In this document: one piece after another, positions 3,580-13,196 of the stretch | Position numbering within the stretch: the stretch's first letter is position 1 | Layout: the number at the start of each line of letters is the position of its first letter | Assembly (NCBI RefSeq): GCF_004403515.1 | Contig: NZ_SOHH01000061.1 | Location: 1-64,000 of the forward strand | Reading direction: 5' to 3' | Length of the DNA: 64,000 nucleotides | Source of the DNA: Cryobacterium fucosi | GTDB lineage: Bacteria > Actinomycetota > Actinomycetes > Actinomycetales > Microbacteriaceae | The notes under the pieces: generated by a model | What the model was told of the DNA's origin: nothing | Database searches by the model: none | The model's input: only the letters and a program-made list of their open reading frames with translations | Program-made: the position numbers and the translations under genes

Positions 3580-4413
3580 TCAGGAGCGAGCGCTGAGGAA
3601 TGCCCTGAGGCCGACCAGATCGTCGGTGTTGATGTGGTCGACTCCGGCCTCATAAAGCTGCGTCCAGACCGCGTCGCGCGCCGCACCGGCCACATCCGTC
3701 GTCGCCCAGAAGCGCACGCGGTAGCCCTTGTTGTGCGCGGTCTGCACGTACTCGTGCAGCTTCGCCCGCTCGGCCTCCGGCATTGCGCCTTCGCCGTTCC
3801 AGGTGAACAGCCTGGTCCAGTTCTCGCTGACCAGCGGCATGAGTGTGGCCGGGATGTCGCCGGCCAGATCGCCGGAGCGTCCGTCGTAGAAGCTGAACCG
3901 GTTCGTCTGGGCCCGCATCGTCGCCAGGGGTCGATTGCCGCTCACCACCGCGGTGACCGCTCCGCGTTTGGTCTTTCCGTCGGAGTAGCGAGTCATGATG
4001 CCGGAGCGTTCCGCGAGGGCTGCTTCGATCGCCGCGTACGTCGTCTCCGGCTCGGACTTGATGTCGATCAGCAGCTGCACGCTGCCGTTCCAACCGGGGT
4101 AGACGCTGCGGCCCTTCACCATCTCGTCCAGCGGGTCGAGGTAGAGGCTCTCGAGCGTGACGCCCGGCCGCACCCCCTCGAGGCTGTGCGCGACGAGAAG
4201 CTCCCCGCCGATCAGCCACACGTCGACCTCCACGCTGGTGAAGCCCTGCTCGAGGGCATCGAACAACGGGCGCTCGTGCTCGTAGTCGTTGTGGGCGTGC
4301 GCGGCCGCCAGCGGCTCGCCGAGCACGACGTCGACGCCGCGTGAGCGCGTAGCCGTGTGCTGCTGTGGCGGCGCCGCGGCGCCGGCGAGCGTCGCGAGGG
4401 CAAGGGCGGCCAC
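3580..4413 (-). CDS. Secreted GDPD/PI-PLC-like phosphodiesterase
   Basis: About 277 aa with an N-terminal hydrophobic signal segment (AALALATLAGAAA). The TIM-barrel signature AHAHNDYEHERPLFDAL followed by EVDVWL and LLVAHS places the two catalytic His and the metal-binding Glu/Asp of the GDPD/PI-PLC superfamily, in the branch of uncharacterised secreted members. GTG at 4413 is the first canonical start but cuts off the positively charged start of the signal peptide. The frame stays open to an ATC at 4443-4441, where a strong AAGGAG (4450-4455 complement) sits 6 nt upstream, and translation from there would give MRFAPITSVLVAALALA. The true start may therefore be 4443. Substrate not predictable. 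Confidence 0.75.
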   Translation of the reverse strand: MAALALATLAGAAAPPQQHTATRSRGVDVVLGEPLAAAHAHNDYEHERPLFDALEQGFTSVEVDVWLIGGELLVAHSLEGVRPGVTLESLYLDPLDEMVKGRSVYPGWNGSVQLLIDIKSEPETTYAAIEAALAERSGIMTRYSDGKTKRGAVTAVVSGNRPLATMRAQTNRFSFYDGRSGDLAGDIPATLMPLVSENWTRLFTWNGEGAMPEAERAKLHEYVQTAHNKGYRVRFWATTDVAGAARDAVWTQLYEAGVDHINTDDLVGLRAFLSARS

Positions 4414-4565
4414 GAGGACCGAAGTAATGGGTGCGAAACGGATGGGAGACTCCTTCTATTCTGAAAGGCGATGCCGCGCAGTGCCGCACCCCCCTTTTGG
4501 GAGCATGCCGAAGTCGCCCGGCAACCTCAAGCCGGCGCGGCAGTGTTCACCAGGGCGCCTTCCGC

Positions 4566-4601
4566 CCGCCGGCATCCGTTCACGGCGACGGATGCCGGCG
4601 G
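4566..4601. terminator. Perfect 14-bp inverted repeat built on GGCATCCGT/ACGGATGCC
   Basis: Arms at 4566-4579 and 4588-4601 pair perfectly (CCGCCGGCATCCGT) around an 8-nt loop. No U-tract follows. It lies in the roughly 290-bp spacer between the divergent secreted phosphodiesterase and the MFS gene, so it ends no obvious operon. It may be a dispersed palindromic repeat rather than a terminator. Nothing else coding is seen between 4444 and 4731. Confidence 0.5.
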
Positions 4602-4673
4602 CCCCGACCTCGTGGATGCGGCAGTCAGTACTACCGGGAAGGAAACAGTGGACGCCAGACATGGCGGGCTATT

Positions 4674-4695
4674 CATGTGCATTAGTGCGCACATG
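4674..4695. promoter_or_regulatory. Inverted repeat, candidate ArsR-family operator
   Basis: CATGTGC (4674-4680) and GCACATG (4689-4695) are perfect 7-bp arms separated by 8 nt, in an AT-richer patch 37 bp before the MFS start. The next gene but one encodes a metal-sensing ArsR protein, whose family binds imperfect palindromes over its promoters, so this is a plausible autoregulatory site. Binding is inference. Confidence 0.45.
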
Positions 4696-4731
4696 TATTA
4701 TTGGTACCCGAGCCACGAGGAGTGCTGCACC

Positions 4732-5973
4732 ATGCTGTCGGTTCTGAAAAACCCCGTCTATCGGAAGCTGTTCACCGCCCAGGTGGTGGCCCTGCTCGGG
4801 ACGGGTCTCTTGACGATCGCCCTGGGCCTGCTGGCCTTTGATCTCGCCGGATCCAAGGCGGGCGCCGTTCTCGGTACCGCCCTGACGATCAAGATGCTGG
4901 CCTATGTCGGTGTTGCGCCTGTCATTGCGGCTCTCGTTGAACGGCTCCCCAGGAAGGTCGTGCTGGTCGCTGCGGATATTGTCAGAGCCGCCGTGGCCTT
5001 GTCGCTGCCCTTCCTGACCGAGGTGTGGCAGATCTACGTCCTGGTTTTCGTGCTCCAGGCTGCTTCGGCCACCTTCACGCCGGCGTTCCAATCGGTGATC
5101 CCCGTCATCCTGCCGGATGAAAAGGCCTACACCAGGGCGTTGTCGCTCTCCCGACTTGCCTATGATCTAGAAGCCCTGGTCAGCCCTGCCCTTGCAGCCT
5201 TGCTGCTCACCGTCGTCAGCTACAACAACCTCTTCCTCGGCACTACTGCCGGATTCCTCGTCTCGGCATTGATGGTGGTCACGATCGCGTTGCCCACAGG
5301 CGAACAGGCTGCGGCGGTGGGAAGTGTCTGGCACAGGACCACACTTGGCGTCAGAATATTCGCTCGGACGCCCAGCCTGCGTTCACTGATGGTGTTGAAT
5401 CTGACGGTCGGTGCATCGACGGCCCTGGTACTGGTGAATAGCGTCGTCTATGCCAGGGACACGTTCGGGCTTTCCAACTCCAGCCTGGCCCTGGCCCTGG
5501 CGTCCTATGGTGCGGGGTCGATGATCGTCGCCCTCAACGTCCCGCGGATACTGGACCGCACTGGCGACCGGACGTTGATGCTAACGGGCGCCTCCATCCT
5601 CACGGTCGGTCTGCTGCTGGCCATTCCGATGACGGTCGCGGCTGGTGCCTGGGCAGGGTCCTGGTGGTTCCTGCTCGCGTTATGGGCGCTGATGGGGGCC
5701 GGAAACGCCATGATCATCACTCCGTCGGCGCGCATACTCCGGCGGGCATCCACCGATCAAACTCGCAGTTATATCTTCACGGCTCAATTCTCTCTTTCGC
5801 ACGCGGCCTTCCTGATCACATACCCGATCGCCGGGTGGCTAGGAGCCCTGGGACTGGTCTGGGCCGTCGTGGCACTGGCCATCATCGCCGCAGGCAGCAT
5901 GATCGCCGCGCGGGTGATGTGGCCGGCACCTCAACTGGCACCCGAGCCCGTCGCAACCATGACAGGAGCCTGA
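4732..5973 (+). CDS. MFS transporter of a metal-responsive operon
   Basis: A 413-aa major facilitator protein with about 12 hydrophobic helices; the first is TAQVVALLGTGLLTIALGLLAF, and a cytoplasmic loop VERLPRKVVLVAADIVRA matches motif A-like loop 2-3. I chose ATG 4732 (MLSVLKNPVYRKLF) because homologous N-termini begin there and the frame upstream is not protein-like. It ends 2 nt before the ArsR regulator, so the two form one transcription unit, with the P-type ATPase following. The pairing suggests export of the sensed metal or a complex of it, but MFS sequence alone does not give the substrate. Confidence 0.8.
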   Translation: MLSVLKNPVYRKLFTAQVVALLGTGLLTIALGLLAFDLAGSKAGAVLGTALTIKMLAYVGVAPVIAALVERLPRKVVLVAADIVRAAVALSLPFLTEVWQIYVLVFVLQAASATFTPAFQSVIPVILPDEKAYTRALSLSRLAYDLEALVSPALAALLLTVVSYNNLFLGTTAGFLVSALMVVTIALPTGEQAAAVGSVWHRTTLGVRIFARTPSLRSLMVLNLTVGASTALVLVNSVVYARDTFGLSNSSLALALASYGAGSMIVALNVPRILDRTGDRTLMLTGASILTVGLLLAIPMTVAAGAWAGSWWFLLALWALMGAGNAMIITPSARILRRASTDQTRSYIFTAQFSLSHAAFLITYPIAGWLGALGLVWAVVALAIIAAGSMIAARVMWPAPQLAPEPVATMTGA

Positions 5974-5975
5974 CC

Positions 5976-6371
5976 ATGGTCGATAACCGCAGCCACACCT
6001 CCGCAATCACGGCAGATGACTCGAGACTCGCCACGGCGGCTGCCACCTTGAAAATGCTGGCCGAAAAGACCCGGCTTCACATTCTGTGGATCTTGACAAC
6101 CGCGCCGGCGGACGTCAACTCGCTGACGAGAGCAACGGGTGCGTCGCGCACCGCCGTGAGCCAACACCTGGCCAAACTCAGGCTGGCCGGGCTCGTCGAT
6201 GCGCACAGGGAAGACCGTCATGTGATCTATTCCCTCCGTGACGGCCACCTCAGCCGACTGGTTGCTGAGAGCTTGAGCCATGCTGACCACATTGCAACCG
6301 GAGAACCGCTTCACCCACCGGAAACCGACGGCGAACCGGCCAGACGAGGCGCCCACAGGTCGACAGCGTGA
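5976..6371 (+). CDS. ArsR/SmtB-family metal-sensing repressor (alpha-5 site)
   Basis: A 131-aa winged-helix repressor: recognition helix TGASRTAVSQHLAKLRLAGL and wing HREDRHVIYSLRD. There are no cysteines, so it is not an arsenite or CmtR-type thiolate sensor. The helix after the wing reads DGHLSRLVAESLSHADH; D89, H91, H102 and H105 have exactly the spacing of the CzrA alpha-5 Zn/Co site (D84, H86, H97, H100), also used in related form by SmtB and NmtR. I infer a Zn, Co or Ni sensor. It starts 2 nt after the MFS stop. Inverted repeats lie before the operon (4674) and before the downstream ATPase (6440). The last ~20 residues are a polar tail. Confidence 0.88.
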   Translation: MVDNRSHTSAITADDSRLATAAATLKMLAEKTRLHILWILTTAPADVNSLTRATGASRTAVSQHLAKLRLAGLVDAHREDRHVIYSLRDGHLSRLVAESLSHADHIATGEPLHPPETDGEPARRGAHRSTA

Positions 6372-6427
6372 TCGGTTTGTCGCCGCGCGCTCCCGACAAA
6401 AATCTCCAATTGGCCGTCGGTCCTAAA

Positions 6428-6463
6428 GTATGCAAGAATCTGCGTATAAACGTAGATATGCAG
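6428..6463. promoter_or_regulatory. Candidate ArsR-type operator upstream of the P-type ATPase
   Basis: The spacer contains TATGCA (6429-6434), CTGCGTAT (6440-6447) and ATATGCAG (6456-6463). The last two form an 8-8-8 inverted repeat with one mismatch, and the first adds a third half-site. The tract is AT-rich compared with its surroundings and sits 54 bp before the ATPase start, fitting regulation by the upstream ArsR protein. Confidence 0.45.
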
Positions 6464-6516
6464 GTTTGTGGGCGAAACCCCGATAGGCACCACCACTTCG
6501 AAACGGACACCGCATC

Positions 6517-8391
6517 ATGAACGCACGACAGTCACCCGCAAGCACACTCCCGTCGCTGATGACACGGCAGCGCTGGATCGAAGTCGCCCGAATCGTCTTC
6601 ACGGGCATCATTTCTGTGCTGTTCTGGCAACAATTGGTGCCGGTCGCCGTATTGTGGGGTGCGGTCGCCATCGGGCTATACCCGCTGGCCAAGACCGGCT
6701 TGATCGAACTCATCCGCATACGCAAAATCGGGACCGAAATCTTCGTCACCGTCGCCACCCTGGTGGCGGTACTCGGTGGTGAACCGCTTGCCGGTGTGGT
6801 GTTGATGACCATCATTCTCATCGCCGAATTCATCGCCGAACTCAATACCGATCGAGCGCGTGCCTCGATAAAGGCGCTCATCGGTTCGGTCCCAGACACC
6901 GCTATCCTGCGCGACAAGGACGGCGACCGCTCGGTAGCCGTGGCCGAGCTGAAGATCGGTGACGTGGTCCTCGTACGGGCTGGCGAGAAGATTCCGGTCG
7001 ACGGCCGGGTCGACGGCGGTAGCGCGGCCGTCGACGAGTCTCCGATTACGGGCGAGAGCATTCCGAAGGACAAAGAAGACGGCGATCACGTCTTTGCCGG
7101 GACGATTCTGGAATCGGGTGCTCTGGACATCCGGACCGAACAATTGGGCAACGACACGACCTTCGCCCGCATCATCGCGCTGGTTGAAGAGGCCGAAGAA
7201 TCACAAGCCCCGGTTCAGAAACTCGCAGACAAAGTAGCTGCCTGGCTGATCCCCATCGTGTTCGTGTTCCTCATTGTGATCTTCCTGATCACCGGCGACG
7301 TGCGCCTGATCGTGACGCTTTTGATCTTCACGTCCCCCGCCGAGCTGGGGCTCGCCACGCCGCTGGTCATCATCGCGGCCATCTCCCGTGCCGCCCGCAA
7401 CGGCGTGCTGGTGAAAGGCGGGATCTTCCTGGAATCACTCGCCAAGGTAGACACCATTGTCTTCGACAAAACAGGCACACTCACCGAAAATACGCCGCGG
7501 GTCACGCAGATCGAACTCCACGACACGACTCTCTCGGAACAGGACGTCCTGGCTCTCGCTGCAAGCGCCGACAGGCGGTCGGCTCACCCGCTCGCCAAAG
7601 CGATCGTCGACGCCGCCAGCCAGCGAGGAATCGCGATTTTCGAACCCACAACCTACGACCAGATACGCGCCCGCGGCGTGAAGGCCGAAATCAACAACCG
7701 GCACGTACTCGTGGGCAATCCCGCTCTGCTTCTCGAAAACAACGTAGCCGTCGACAGGGAAGAGAAATTCCCCGGCGAAACCCCTATCCACATTGCCGTC
7801 GACGGAAAACTGGCCGGCATCATTTACGTAGCGGATGCGGTGCGCGCCGAGGCACGAGAAACCATCGCTCAGCTCAAAGCCACCGGTGTCAAGCGCATCA
7901 TCATGCTGACTGGAGACAACAAGGCAACGGGCAAGGCAATCGCCGACCAGCTGGGGATCGACGAAGTCCATGCCGAATTGCTACCGGAGGACAAGGTAAG
8001 CATCATCGACCGGCTGAAGAAGGAAGGCTCACGAGTTGCCATGGTTGGCGACGGCATCAACGATGCGCCCGCCCTGGCTCGCGCCGACGTCGGGATCGCG
8101 ATGGGCGGCAGCGGGTCGCAGGCAGCGCTTGAAGCGGCGGACGTCGCCCTGATGTCCGACGACCTGCACAAGATCGTCGTGGCCAGATCCATCGCGCGCA
8201 GGGCCTACCGAACCATCCAGGAGAACTTGTTTGTCGGTGTTGGTGTTGTGCATGTGCTGGGGATCACAGCGGCCCTGCTCGGCCTCATTGGACCGATTCA
8301 AGCAGCCCTCTTGCACCTCGGACCCGACATCCTGGTCTTCGTCAACTCCATCAAGCTTCTGCATGTAAAAATTCCGAACGCCAGCAAGTGA
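6517..8391 (+). CDS. P1B-type metal ATPase with SPA in place of CPC/SPC
   Basis: A 624-aa P-type ATPase. Seen: an N-terminal helix block without a HMA metal-binding domain, actuator TGES (ITGESIPKD), phosphorylation motif DKTGTLT near residue 317, the HP motif in SAHPLAKAI, and hinge GDGINDAPAL near residue 511. The transmembrane metal-site motif reads TSPAELGLATP (S274-P-A) where P1B pumps have CPC, SPC or TPC, so the usual Cys is gone. The last helix has HLGPD where the P1B-2/P1B-4 groups have HEGGT-like text. It is therefore an atypical P1B subgroup, probably exporting a divalent metal sensed by the adjacent ArsR. Start ATG 6517. Converges with the restriction gene 38 bp downstream. Confidence 0.85.
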   Translation: MNARQSPASTLPSLMTRQRWIEVARIVFTGIISVLFWQQLVPVAVLWGAVAIGLYPLAKTGLIELIRIRKIGTEIFVTVATLVAVLGGEPLAGVVLMTIILIAEFIAELNTDRARASIKALIGSVPDTAILRDKDGDRSVAVAELKIGDVVLVRAGEKIPVDGRVDGGSAAVDESPITGESIPKDKEDGDHVFAGTILESGALDIRTEQLGNDTTFARIIALVEEAEESQAPVQKLADKVAAWLIPIVFVFLIVIFLITGDVRLIVTLLIFTSPAELGLATPLVIIAAISRAARNGVLVKGGIFLESLAKVDTIVFDKTGTLTENTPRVTQIELHDTTLSEQDVLALAASADRRSAHPLAKAIVDAASQRGIAIFEPTTYDQIRARGVKAEINNRHVLVGNPALLLENNVAVDREEKFPGETPIHIAVDGKLAGIIYVADAVRAEARETIAQLKATGVKRIIMLTGDNKATGKAIADQLGIDEVHAELLPEDKVSIIDRLKKEGSRVAMVGDGINDAPALARADVGIAMGGSGSQAALEAADVALMSDDLHKIVVARSIARRAYRTIQENLFVGVGVVHVLGITAALLGLIGPIQAALLHLGPDILVFVNSIKLLHVKIPNASK

Positions 8392-8428
8392 AACCTGCGC
8401 GACGATCTCCTCCGCGACCGCACCCTCG

Positions 8429-11161
8429 CTACTGCGCAGCCGCCGCATTCGTGGCGGTGAACGGTGCGTAAGAGCGGGCGCCCTCGGCGATGTCCCGGTT
8501 GAGCCGGGTAAGCCGGGCGACGAGCTCGCCGGGGTTCTGTGCGGCCGACTTCGGCCAGCCGTACGCGGCGACGACGGCCTCGTCGAGACGCTTGTGCAGG
8601 GCGGCGAGGTCGGTGAAGCCGCCGTCGTCCATCAGGTTGTAGAGCCTGGTGAGCCCGATGTTGTGCTCGAGGCACAGCGCGCTCCTTCGGGCATACAGGG
8701 CAACGGATGCCGCGGCGACGGCCGCGCGCTGATCCGCCGTCACCGGGTCTGGCCAGGGGAACGTCTCGAACACCGTCGTCGGCGTGTACCGCAGACGCGT
8801 TTCGAGCGTGGAGGAGCGCGCCCACGCCCACGCGTCATGCGCGCGGGAAAGCAGGACGCCCATGCTGTAGTCGTCGTCGAAGGCGAAGACCATGTTCGCG
8901 TTGCTGGCGAGAGTCCACGTGTCTACCCAGGCGATGAGCATGCGCTTTCCGTGGGCTCCGACGGCCGCGTAACGGTCGAACGACGATGTAGCCTGACGTA
9001 ATCCAACGCGCGGCTCACCAAAGAGCCACCAATTCCTACGGTGCCCTTCGCGGCGAACCGTGTCCCGGAATGGTTTCACCTCATTGCGCACGATCGAAAG
9101 CGCCGCAGGGTACTTCGCTGCATTTTCAAGCGGTCGCTGAGCGAAATCGATGATCCATCTGCTTGGCGCTTGGTCTGGGAAATCAGCGAGATCACTCGCC
9201 GTCAAATACGGGCGCACGACATCCCGGTACTTGACAGTTTGATTTGCGAGAAGTACCGACGCCACCGTGGGGGGCACGACAAATCCAGAGCCAACGGGTA
9301 TCGGGCCCTGGAAGCACCTGCTCTTGTTCGCACCGAGCGCAACCGGCGCCCACTCCCCGCCGGTCCCGGCCGTCAGCGACGAGGTGATCCCGTCCACCCG
9401 CACGCCATCCAACTCGAACTCCGCGGGCGCGGCATCCGGCTGTTTGACCCAGTTCACGATGCTCACATGCACCTTGGCGTCGCCCGGCCATTTCTGCGTG
9501 GAAACGGCATCCGTGATCACGCCGCCCGTCGCGACGATGTAGTTGAGCGAGGCCTCGCGCCCGCGGTTCTGCGTGATCGAGTTGGTGCCGACGAGCCCGG
9601 CCCGCTGACCCGGCTTCAGCTGCTCCTGCGCACGACGGAACCAATAGACGCAGAGGTCGCGCACGCCCACGCCGAAGCTCTTTCCGAGCCACTCGACGTA
9701 CGGCCCGCCGAGACCCGCCCGCAGCAACTGCGACCCGAGGAACGGCGGGTTGCCGATGATCGCATCGACGTCGGGCCAGTCGGTTCGGAGCGCATCGGCG
9801 GCGCGGATGCCAGAGAGGTCGACGAGCGGGAGCACCGGCTCGGCCTCGCCGTAGCGCTCGATCATCTGCCGATGGCCCATCCACAGTGTGACGCGCGCGA
9901 TGAGCACGGCGATGCGTTCGATTTCGATTCCCTTGATGTTTGCGAGCGGGTAGTACGGCAGCGGGCCGGCGGGAACGGGCGCGCCCGTCTCCTGCGCGAG
10001 TCGGCTCATCCGCTGCTTGAGCTCGTGTTCAAGGCCACGCAGCTCGCGGTAGGCGACGTAGAGGAAGTTGCCGCAACCGCAGGCGGGGTCGAGCACCGTG
10101 AACGCGCAGAGCTCGTCGAGCAGCGAACGCGCCTCTCCGGCGGTCGCGGCGGCGTCGATGCGTTCGCGCCACGGGCGCACGATCGTGGGCGTGACAATCT
10201 TCATGATGTCGGCCTCGTGCGTGTAGTGCGCGCCGAGTTCGCCGCGACGCTCGTCGCCGAGCACGCCCTCCATGAGAGAGCCGAAGATGGTGGGGTTCAC
10301 CTCGCGCCAGTTGAACTCGGCCGCATCCCGCAGGTGCACAAGCTCATCGCGGTTGAGGTAGACCGCGGCGGGCTTGGCGAAGAGTTCACCGTTCACGTAG
10401 CGGGTTCCCGCGTACCGGCCCTTGCGGTTGTGGTTGCCCTTCTGGTTGAGCAGGGTGAACAGGTAGCCGATGTCGCGGGCCGAGTCCGGGTCTTTCTCGG
10501 CCAGCAGACCGTCGACCGTGTTCTGCAGCGGATACCCCTCGAGCATGCCGAGGTCTTCGGCGAAGAGACACCAGACCAGTTGCATCGTGAAGCGCTGGAT
10601 CTCGTCGATCGGCGCGGCCGAGCGGTCGGCCATCGAGGTGTACAGCTCGGCGATGTGCCGCGCGGCATCCTTCGTCAGTTCGCGGCGGTGTTCGGAAAAA
10701 ACCGGGTCGATGCTGTCCGACTGCAGGAACAGCAGCGCGTCGTAGTGGTCGGGCAGTTCGTCGATGCCGAAGCGGATGCGCGGCTCGTTGGGGAAACGAC
10801 CCGGCTCCCACACCTCGAACTCGCGGAAGTTGCAGGTGACCACCCAGCGTGCGGCCTGGATGTTCTCCTTCGAGTTCGAGGACTCCTGCCAGTAGCGGAT
10901 GCGCTGGTCTTTCGCCTTCTCGAGGGCGACGTTCGGGCCCTTCATCTCTACGATGAGGGTGCCCGGCCAGTGCAGGTCCATGAAGCCCGCCGACGACCTG
11001 AAGTCTTCGAAGAGCGCGCCGACGGCGGTGCGATCCGAGCCGTAGGCGTCGAAGAGTTCGTTGAGGAAGGTCTGCGCCTCGGCCTTCTCGGTGCCCGCGT
11101 AGCCCGACCATTTCTTGACGAACTTGTCAAGTGCCGCCTGGATCTCGAGGCCGCTACGCAC
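8429..11161 (-). CDS. MmeI-like (type IIL) fused restriction-modification enzyme
   Basis: A 910-aa single-chain enzyme. The N-terminus carries a PD-(D/E)XK nuclease of MmeI type: D62, nine residues, then E72-M-K74 (DLHWPGTLIVEMK), exactly the D-X9-EXK spacing. A helical connector follows, then an N6-adenine methyltransferase domain with motif I DPACGCGNF near residue 357 and motif IV NPPF near 468. The C-terminal ~350 residues would hold the target recognition domain. Length matches MmeI (about 920 aa). Enzymes of this family cut some 20 nt from the site and protect the host by methylating one strand. GTG at 11161 fits family N-termini (IQAALDKFVKKWSGY). The recognition sequence cannot be read from here. 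Some members are annotated only as methyltransferases. Confidence 0.85.
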   Translation of the reverse strand: MRSGLEIQAALDKFVKKWSGYAGTEKAEAQTFLNELFDAYGSDRTAVGALFEDFRSSAGFMDLHWPGTLIVEMKGPNVALEKAKDQRIRYWQESSNSKENIQAARWVVTCNFREFEVWEPGRFPNEPRIRFGIDELPDHYDALLFLQSDSIDPVFSEHRRELTKDAARHIAELYTSMADRSAAPIDEIQRFTMQLVWCLFAEDLGMLEGYPLQNTVDGLLAEKDPDSARDIGYLFTLLNQKGNHNRKGRYAGTRYVNGELFAKPAAVYLNRDELVHLRDAAEFNWREVNPTIFGSLMEGVLGDERRGELGAHYTHEADIMKIVTPTIVRPWRERIDAAATAGEARSLLDELCAFTVLDPACGCGNFLYVAYRELRGLEHELKQRMSRLAQETGAPVPAGPLPYYPLANIKGIEIERIAVLIARVTLWMGHRQMIERYGEAEPVLPLVDLSGIRAADALRTDWPDVDAIIGNPPFLGSQLLRAGLGGPYVEWLGKSFGVGVRDLCVYWFRRAQEQLKPGQRAGLVGTNSITQNRGREASLNYIVATGGVITDAVSTQKWPGDAKVHVSIVNWVKQPDAAPAEFELDGVRVDGITSSLTAGTGGEWAPVALGANKSRCFQGPIPVGSGFVVPPTVASVLLANQTVKYRDVVRPYLTASDLADFPDQAPSRWIIDFAQRPLENAAKYPAALSIVRNEVKPFRDTVRREGHRRNWWLFGEPRVGLRQATSSFDRYAAVGAHGKRMLIAWVDTWTLASNANMVFAFDDDYSMGVLLSRAHDAWAWARSSTLETRLRYTPTTVFETFPWPDPVTADQRAAVAAASVALYARRSALCLEHNIGLTRLYNLMDDGGFTDLAALHKRLDEAVVAAYGWPKSAAQNPGELVARLTRLNRDIAEGARSYAPFTATNAAAAQ

Positions 11162-12687: not shown

Positions 12688-12939
12688 ATGTCGGCGATCA
12701 CCGCGACGGAAGCACGCAGGAGCCTATTCGGGCTCATCCAACAGGTCAATGACGACCACATCGCTGTCGAGGTCGTATCCCGGCACGGAAACGCGGTCAT
12801 CCTGTCGAAGGAGGACTACGACGCGATGACCGAGACGGCCTACCTGCTGAGGAGCCCCGCCAATGCCGAGCGGTTGCTCACCGCGATCGAGCGCGCCCGG
12901 CGTGGCGAGTTCGAGCAGCACGACCTCTTCGACGCGTGA
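12688..12939 (+). CDS. yefM: YefM/Phd-family antitoxin
   Basis: An 83-aa antitoxin. Its N-terminal Phd/YefM fold is diagnostic (SAITATEARRSLFGLIQQVN, then VVSRHGNAVILSKEDYDAM). The C-terminal ~25 residues (ERARRGEFEQHDLFDA) form the flexible toxin-neutralising tail seen in YefM, where EHDL(I/L) is typical. A strong AGGAGG lies 5 nt upstream. It overlaps the toxin by 4 nt (GTGA), giving translational coupling so antitoxin is made first. The pair sits in a decayed accessory segment, consistent with recent acquisition. Confidence 0.92.
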   Translation: MSAITATEARRSLFGLIQQVNDDHIAVEVVSRHGNAVILSKEDYDAMTETAYLLRSPANAERLLTAIERARRGEFEQHDLFDA

Positions 12940-13196
12940 GGCGAACGATCGCCTTCGACCCGAATGGGTGGGAGGACTACGTCTACTGGCAGACTCAGGA
13001 CCGTAAGACTCTCAAGCGAATCAACCAGCTGATTACCGACGCACTCCGCGATCCGTTCGCTGGCATCGGCAAACCCGAGGCCCTTAAGCACATCCTCTCC
13101 GGCGCGTGGTCCCGCCGCATCGACGATACGAACCGCTTGGTCTATTTCGTCACGGACGACCACATCGTCATCCTGCAGGCCCGCGAACATTACTGA
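12936..13196 (+). CDS. yoeB: YoeB-family mRNA interferase toxin
   Basis: An 86-aa RelE-superfamily toxin that in E. coli cuts mRNA on the ribosome. It aligns along its whole length: GKPEALKHILSGAWSRRID for the catalytic Glu/Arg segment, NRLVYFV, and the conserved C-terminal AREHY with the catalytic His and Tyr. All key residues are present, so it should be active. Start GTG 12936 overlaps the antitoxin stop. No terminator is obvious downstream. Confidence 0.93.
   Translation: MRRTIAFDPNGWEDYVYWQTQDRKTLKRINQLITDALRDPFAGIGKPEALKHILSGAWSRRIDDTNRLVYFVTDDHIVILQAREHY

Follow-up and report, generated by a model that had tools for sequence, protein, structure and literature searches.

The closest described systems are the P1B-4 ATPases (CoaT, CtpD, CtpJ; sCoaT structure 7QBZ), metal pumps of P1B architecture without a classical HMA domain that carry SPC in transmembrane segment M4 and HEG(S/G)T in M6 (PMC7689651, PMC8880997). 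These pumps cannot do without the His of HEGxT, which is positioned between the SPC residues (PMC8880997). NmtR, an ArsR-family sensor, controls a P-type Co/Ni ATPase (PMC7055735, PMC7689651). A second comparison is with the nre/ncr nickel modules (NreA, NreB, NcrB, NcrC; PMC12724321, PMC5557971, PMC3046157); these papers do not mention a P-type ATPase among the components, "ATPase" occurring 0 times in the first two and once, in a reference title, in the third. We analysed 64,000 nucleotides of Cryobacterium fucosi DNA (contig NZ_SOHH01000061.1, hereafter the window), which hold a P1B-type ATPase gene following genes for an MFS transporter and an ArsR-family sensor. The pump shares with P1B-4 the lack of an HMA domain, the Ser-Pro of M4 and the His that opens the M6 motif, and the nearest solved relative of its neighboring sensor is NmtR; with the nre/ncr modules the pump's family shares regulator type, operator form and partner transporters. 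It differs from P1B-4 in reading SPAE for SPC and HLGPD for HEGxT, in an extra M5 His, and in belonging to a separate clade, here called SPA. We favor, with a probability of roughly 0.74, the reading that a nickel (probably nickel/cobalt) resistance module was acquired horizontally, with this gene as its pump alongside the NreB-like MFS transporter and the NmtR-like ArsR.

The ATPase open reading frame (ORF), 6517-8391 on the forward strand, starts with ATG and, stop codon included in the coordinates, encodes 624 residues; internal stops were looked for in it and none was found. Pfam matches it with E1-E2_ATPase and two haloacid-dehalogenase hydrolase models and, in the same scan, with no HMA domain; against NCBIfam TIGR01525 it reaches 563.5 bits, the cut-off being 346.25. 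TSPAELGLATP occupies residues 272-282, and the catalytic motifs are intact (TGES 178-181, DKTGT 317-321, HP 357-358, GDGIND 511-516). The first-pass annotation had described just this combination of SPA, HLGPD, missing N-terminal metal domain and intact catalytic motifs, and Pfam and alignment bear it out. On TIGR01525 and the TGES, DKTGT, HP and GDGxND motifs, the predicted protein is a P1B-type ATPase; since that family is defined by overall sequence, catalytic motifs and the set of transmembrane helices, the missing CPC Cys marks a variant and not a non-member. An AlphaFold2 model built from 24 family members (mean predicted local distance difference test score 80.7) has eight long membrane-type helices in all, the two extra N-terminal ones included. 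Foldseek rows 1-16 and VIA-align rows 1-9 for this model are all P1B ATPases. sCoaT (7qbz; Z 32.1, root-mean-square deviation 11.9, 574 residues aligned) and CopA (7r0g; Z 31.9, deviation 4.4, 598 aligned) are tied at Z of about 32, so that the structure comparison is not decisive, and the fold cannot settle ligands or direction.

The window ATPase was aligned with 25 relatives 61-72% identical to it, leaving out truncated or split sequences (L058, L059, L061, L062, L065-L067, L069) and the near-copy L014. Residues S273, P274, A275, E276, H579, H600, G602, P603, D604, E104, N110 and K613 are each present in all 26 rows; 25 rows have L at position 601 and one has V, and at position 108 there are 19 with E and seven with D. 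The first-pass annotation had raised the question whether SPA always comes with HLGPD: SPAE and H-(L/V)-GPD co-occur in every row, a conservation that, to judge from the alignment, exceeds chance. SPA as a lone point change in this strain is rejected by the same 26 rows. The catalytic motifs are likewise kept throughout, in several phyla. When the motifs of 16 SPA rows were compared with 50 others (48 P1B, one other P-type pump and the SPA fragment L059), E276 and N110 were absent from all 50, and H579 was present in L059 alone.

No row has a CPC-like motif with a metal-binding Cys in M4, SPAE standing there in 26/26. Eighteen members, the window protein included, have no Cys at all; in the remaining eight, which have one or two, the SPA site itself is free of Cys. 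Among 104 non-SPA P-type rows, nine without the anchor motif went unscored, and every one of the 95 scored (nearly all P1B, some of them near-copies) kept Cys in its core (at least 1, median 2). For most SPA members sequence alone excludes a thiolate metal site, since 18 of 26 have no Cys. S273, E276, H579, H600 and D604 could instead form a site of O and N ligands.

Two trees were made, a quick one of 66 rows, which took in the non-P1B row L101_+131, the very long row L101_-4941 and the fragment L059, and a careful one of 40 hand-chosen rows without these three; both were made without P1B-3, P1B-6 and P1B-7 reference rows. The SPA rows form a single clade (Shimodaira-Hasegawa-like approximate likelihood ratio support 100 in the quick tree, 100/100 in the careful one). 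For P1B-4 the anchor was L126, which at E 1e-100 or better matches a single PDB entry, sCoaT 7qbz (564 bits). Placing the SPA clade inside P1B-4, as a union with the pair L126 and L063_-2882, was rejected by the approximately unbiased (AU) test (p-AU 6.1e-5), with the P1B-4 group named after the quick tree had been inspected; the SPC row from the window's own genome, L003, fell outside that pair. The P1B-4 motifs are not found either, the P1B-4 Cys, Glu and Thr being replaced in 26/26.

The motifs of other subclasses are likewise missing. The SPA rows do not show the CPC in M4, Lys in M5 and Asp in M6 of P1B-2 (ZntA, PbrA) or the CPC in M4 and MxxSS in M6 of P1B-1 (CopA), CPC standing in the sixth transmembrane helix of those pumps where the SPA pump has SPAE. 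CPH in M4, the motif of P1B-3 (CopB), and TPC in M4, the mark of P1B-5 (Nia), are absent; P1B-3 was judged by motif, there being no CPH row in the trees, and the unannotated TPC sequence of pSymA, which we take to be Nia, lies on a separate starred branch of the 40-row tree. P1B-5 is distant from SPA in the trees and differs further in having TPC with QExxD in the two rows compared; it resembles the pump proposed here in that transport of Ni and Fe has been reported for Nia (PMC4932525). The same source lists the CPH motif and describes P1B-6 and P1B-7 as not biochemically examined (PMC4932525). By these sequences SPA is a distinct P1B clade outside the P1B-4 rows used, which agrees with the expectation in the first-pass annotation that its metal-site residues would differ from the classical subgroups; among the characterized subfamily sequences compared (P1B-3, P1B-6 and P1B-7 rows lacking), none includes it.

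The sister of the SPA clade, with moderate support in the 40-row tree (union 94/90, not starred), appears to be a group of GACG-type P1B sequences (Bosea L015, Novosphingobium L148, Methylorubrum L149, L139-L143); in the quick tree, too, GACG sequences stand beside it. In the M6 stretches compared they share the His and, at position 604, have an acidic residue (HVxSE), and they differ in keeping a Cys, in having lost the M4 Pro (AGACGV against TSPAEL), and in the absence of H579 from the two rows compared. In L148 and L149 a gene for an RcnR-type regulator (fingerprint H3, C35, H60, H64) lies directly upstream of the pump. AGACG in place of CPC, with the M4 Pro missing and one Cys kept, was seen in L015, L037/L139, L140-L143, L148 and L149. 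Other P1B ATPases have CPG with HEASV-like M6 text (L019-L023, L025, L074, L075, L084, L089, L096) or CSC/CTC with NEGSA-like text (L017, L077, L085, L092, L102). The variety of CPx motifs goes beyond what the named P1B subgroups suggest.

Three kinds of regulator with Ni- or Ni/Co-responsive relatives (NmtR-like ArsR, NreA and RcnR-like) accompany these pumps in different phyla, for which the simplest reading is an exporter of Ni(II), possibly of Ni(II) and Co(II). We counted neighbors at 35 SPA loci (L068, 39% identical over 89 residues, left out) and in 20 hand-picked control regions, each holding another P1B gene and drawn from 11 of the SPA host genomes (regions near an SPA gene left out). 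NreB-like MFS genes were found at 9/35 SPA loci and 0/20 controls (uncorrected p 0.019), heavy-metal efflux resistance-nodulation-division (HME-RND) genes at 19/35 and 4/20 (0.022), and DUF3240 at 7/35 and 0/20 (0.040). Differences were non-significant for NicO/RcnA (3 of 35 vs 0 of 20), HupE (5 vs 0), CDF (2 vs 0), CzcE (2 vs 0), ArsR (5 vs 1), MerR (2 vs 3) and CopR (1 vs 1). Since most neighbor queries came from SPA loci, an outside query is the fairer test, and for this we took NreA of Mesorhizobium, which reportedly represses a Ni-tolerance operon in response to Ni (PMC12724321): NreA homologues (45-71% identity, E under 1e-15) lie at 11/35 SPA loci and 0/20 controls (Fisher p 0.0044). 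In L044 the pump stands between genes for a NicO/RcnA-type Ni/Co exporter and a CDF protein, and in L039 the gene directly upstream of it encodes a CsoR/RcnR-family regulator with the RcnR fingerprint HCHH (PMC7055735), here H3, C35, H60 and H64. The first-pass annotation had suggested an uncharacterized metal-export group coupled to ArsR sensors and had named no metal. The separate group stands, and for it nickel/cobalt can be proposed; the general coupling does not, tblastn with ArsR queries finding the α5 type of ArsR gene at only 3/35 loci (window, L051, L056), with the ArsR-like matches of L038 and L053 lacking the α5 pattern. The recurring partners are instead the NreA-type regulators and NreB-like MFS transporters.

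The NreA operator modelled in PMC12724321, TATCCTCTCCAGGAGGATA, has the form TATCC-N9-GGATA. Exact matches to this form number 12 in 460 kb of 34 SPA loci (window excluded; some matches in near-copies) against 1 in 340 kb of controls. Those at the pump stand before an nreA-led operon containing it in L044 (at 6442) and L067 (6524), and between divergent nreA and pump in L045 (7799 and 7868) and L055 (7885). Sites with one mismatch precede the nreA-MFS-pump row of L050/L059 and, by 52 bases, the pump match of L069 (7930). From these sequences it looks as if promoter and SPA pump travel together. We also observed that L013 (4338 and 12775), L064 (205 and 8643) and L014 (4337) have exact NreA-operator-like sites and, by tblastn, no NreA homologue, and that such sites precede SPA pumps across phyla, including a pump at the end of a contig labelled Thaumarchaeota.

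The data on class and neighbors also bear on a broad divalent exporter working like P1B-4 (Co/Zn/Cd/Ni), with the Cys merely replaced and nickel one cargo among several, which we consider unlikely. Such a pump would account for the retained Ser of SPC and His of HEGxT and for the CzcCBA-like RND genes near 19/35 loci, and sCoaT does rank first by VIA-align Z, in its tie with CopA. It is opposed by the AU rejection of a union with P1B-4, by the replacement of the P1B-4 Cys, Glu and Thr in every aligned row, and by the regulators, NreA-type at 11/35 loci against CadR/MerR-like at 2/35.

Within the window (Table 1), the ArsR protein has NmtR (2LKP) as its best PDB match (E 3e-15), and residues identical to Asp91, His93, His104 and His107 of NmtR α5 align with them; these four are Ni(II) ligands in NmtR, together with the N-terminal amine and His3 (PMC7055735). 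From its predicted start codon, the window ArsR has H7 and not H3. For the MFS protein, whose likeliest start is 4732 as opposed to the longer mechanical ORF start at 4471, the 15 best plasmid hits share 60.8-68.3% identity across residues 1-365. One of these hits carries the annotation "putative nickel resistance protein (nreB)" and another "nrsD", and by this similarity the transporter is NreB-like. An ArsR gene adjoins the MFS gene in all six actinobacterial plasmid regions opened; the sole enterobacterial region opened has no adjoining ArsR gene, with HupE and a metal-sensing repressor instead. The NmtR-like ArsR would take NreA's place in the window.

Table 1. Features of the window discussed in the text
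Feature	Position	Strand	Basis or remark
P1B-type ATPase with SPAE/HLGPD metal-site motifs, zero Cys, 624 aa	6517..8391	+	ORF, NCBIfam, Pfam
Codons S273 P274 A275 E276, sixth transmembrane helix	7333..7344	+	invariant 26/26
Codons H600 L601 G602 P603 D604 (HLGPD, residues 600-604), eighth transmembrane helix	8314..8328	+	
Codon H579, seventh transmembrane helix	8251..8253	+	His confined to SPA clade
Codon E104, invariant acidic residue, fourth transmembrane helix	6826..6828	+	alignment
ArsR/SmtB-family metal sensor, D-x-H-x10-H-x2-H α5 pattern	5976..6371	+	nearest PDB NmtR 2LKP
MFS transporter, NreB-like	4732..5973	+	identity to annotated NreB / NrsD plasmid hits
Candidate ArsR operator TGCGTA-N10-TATGCA	6441..6462	.	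one mismatch from dyad before Arthrobacter nreB-like/arsR operons
Candidate ArsR operator, dyad ATTCATGTGC-N8-GCACATGTAT upstream of MFS start	4671..4698	.	

A candidate operator at 6441-6462 lies 54 bases upstream of the ATPase start. The dyad TGCATA-N10-TATGCA stands upstream of the MFS start in three of five actinobacterial plasmids, the other two (L170, L171) having imperfect dyads; a search of the sixth, L146, with the dyad pattern gave no match. The site before the ATPase is the only one in the window to fit the pattern, with one mismatch, and 100 shuffles of the window gave none. A pattern meant for the MFS promoter, GTGCAT-N5-GCGCAC with at most one mismatch, was found nowhere in the window, the MFS promoter included (shuffles average 0.82), so the link between the two promoters rests on the ATPase-side site. 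A sigma-70 scan of 4400-8600 gave 1 site, against 0.7 in shuffles.

These arrangements could also mean that the MFS-ArsR pair is a nickel module by itself and the adjoining ATPase an independent gene for another metal. MFS-arsR pairs do occur without an annotated P-type ATPase in plasmid regions of Arthrobacter, Paenarthrobacter and Brevibacterium, and 145 bp separate arsR from the ATPase in the window. We nonetheless think an independent ATPase improbable: an NreB-like MFS and an SPA ATPase are found together at 9/35 loci, with the MFS in none of the 20 controls; their ORFs overlap in L050/L059; a candidate operator lies just upstream of the window ATPase; and the different gene order of L051/L056 suggests that the MFS-ATPase link may have arisen more than once.

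Several observations weigh against a nickel module. In the window, the last 60 residues of the MFS protein contain 1 His, where NreB has a His-rich C-terminal tail; the NreA operator form is absent. The α5 Asp/His pattern occurs in Zn sensors too, and CzrA and SmtB match the window ArsR, less well than NmtR does, so that this pattern alone does not exclude zinc. The dyad pattern was written after both window promoters had been inspected, and in the whole 3.44-Mb genome it has 1 real site against 2 per strand for the reversed control, so only the place of the site at 6441-6462 counts as evidence. The MFS proteins of L051 and L056 are only 30-33% identical to that of the window. The neighbor evidence is evidence by association, from islands that carry many kinds of resistance; the p values, for 11 neighbor classes, are uncorrected, with queries chosen as stated above, and the loci are not independent (near-copies L050/L059, L052/L062/L058, L013/L014/L064). 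Enrichment is seen for the NreA subtype but not for the whole RcnR/CsoR family (13/35 vs 5/20, p 0.39), and four Ni/Co-type classes pooled differ weakly (19/35 vs 5/20, p 0.049); 16/35 loci, several of them truncated contigs, lack all four. Among the controls, L156 matches NreA with a CsoR-like sequence (E 2e-12, 34% identity). The L039 regulator scores higher with FrmR than with RcnR in NCBIfam, both scores being below cut-off. The HME-RND genes are of mixed types, and there are also genes for CadR-like MerR proteins and for CzcE (L049, L053, L012). Seven of the 12 exact NreA operator matches lie away from the pump, and operator-like sites away from it were found in L013, L014, L064, L049, L057, L039, L052 and L061.

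A Cys-free, carboxylate-rich site would also suit a hard metal, and export of Mn(II) or Fe(II) is a further reading, though one to which we give little weight. The carboxylates of E276 and D604 in the absence of conserved Cys, the VIT1/CCC1 gene adjoining the sister-clade gene of Bosea and the NRAMP gene 5.7 kb downstream in L013 are in keeping with it. Regulators of MntR, Fur or DtxR type are not named beside the pumps in three annotated SPA regions, no systematic search for them having been made, and the sister-clade genes of L148 and L149 have RcnR-type regulators. That the ATPase is degenerate, its metal site lost with the otherwise conserved CPx Cys and its transport gone, is scarcely credible, the replacement residues and catalytic motifs being invariant in 26/26 across several phyla and the window gene having no internal stop.

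The family is rare. A tblastn search of 72,556 plasmid records found three relatives (67-69% identity; Cupriavidus, Shinella, Rhizobium), all reading SPAELGLATP and HLGPD; the remaining 4997 of the best 5000 plasmid records were below 60% identity, 37 others being listed at 36.5-43.0%. A contig scan with two N-terminal peptide patterns, blind to members without them, covered one genome per species for 84,980 species and gave 32 loci, of which 31 were counted as SPA family members. Their record titles name Planctomycetes, Pseudomonadota, Deinococcales, Cyanobacteria and Thaumarchaeota, the last on only 35 residues at a contig end; because all but one come from metagenome-assembled genomes, host labels carry a binning risk. 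No close relative was found in 36 genomes of the same genus (best listed identity 44%), and none of 82 pattern matches in viral contigs is a relative. Five phylum samples, drawn from the window's phylum and those of four family members and with the top 3-11 first-look candidates per genome scored, had SPA relatives in 1/396, 1/398, 1/199, 2/111 and 1/199 genomes, which are the seed genomes only. G+C is 61.3% for 4732-8391 and 69.9% for window positions 12001-64000. Rarity and the lower G+C fit horizontal transfer, and the SPA clade looks horizontally acquired. Our searches of open-access papers found no description of an SPA-type pump; subscription papers lay outside them, among these Smith et al. 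2014, which reportedly set out P1B sequence classes including P1B-6 and P1B-7.

Two further features of the window were noted. Facing the ATPase is a large ORF (8429-11161, reverse strand) that ends 37 bases past the ATPase stop and presumably encodes a DNA methyltransferase of restriction-modification type. Two small adjacent ORFs at 12688-13196 are, we assume, a toxin-antitoxin pair of YefM-YoeB type.

If the gene is the pump of a nickel resistance module, rising cytosolic Ni(II) or Co(II) would be bound by the ArsR protein through its α5 Asp/His ligands, and the sensor would leave two operators, one before the MFS-arsR pair and one before the ATPase, so that both exporters are made. The ATPase would run the usual P1B cycle with phosphorylation of D317, its ion held by O and N ligands from S273, E276, H579, H600 and D604 and not by thiolate. 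By analogy with P1B-4, H600 may play the role of the HEGxT His, and E104, again by analogy, may act in releasing the ion. In NmtR and RcnR the bound Ni is six-coordinate (PMC7055735), a chemistry that the Cys-free SPA site fits. We lean, by a little, towards a wider proposal: that SPA pumps make up a P1B subclass not yet described, thiol-free exporters selective for Ni over Zn and Cd, which dispense with the Cys taken to define the transmembrane site in favor of a Ser/Glu/two-His/Asp site, and that with the Pro-less GACG sister they form a Ni/Co branch in which CPx was rebuilt twice independently.

P1B-ATPases are sorted by a membrane-helix metal motif that is expected to contain Cys. A working clade without it, tied to Ni-sensing regulators in several phyla, would if true be a natural test of which ligands give Ni/Co selectivity in a primary pump. 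An SPA class, if it holds, would also let annotation pipelines name genes that are now called only "cation-translocating P-type ATPase".

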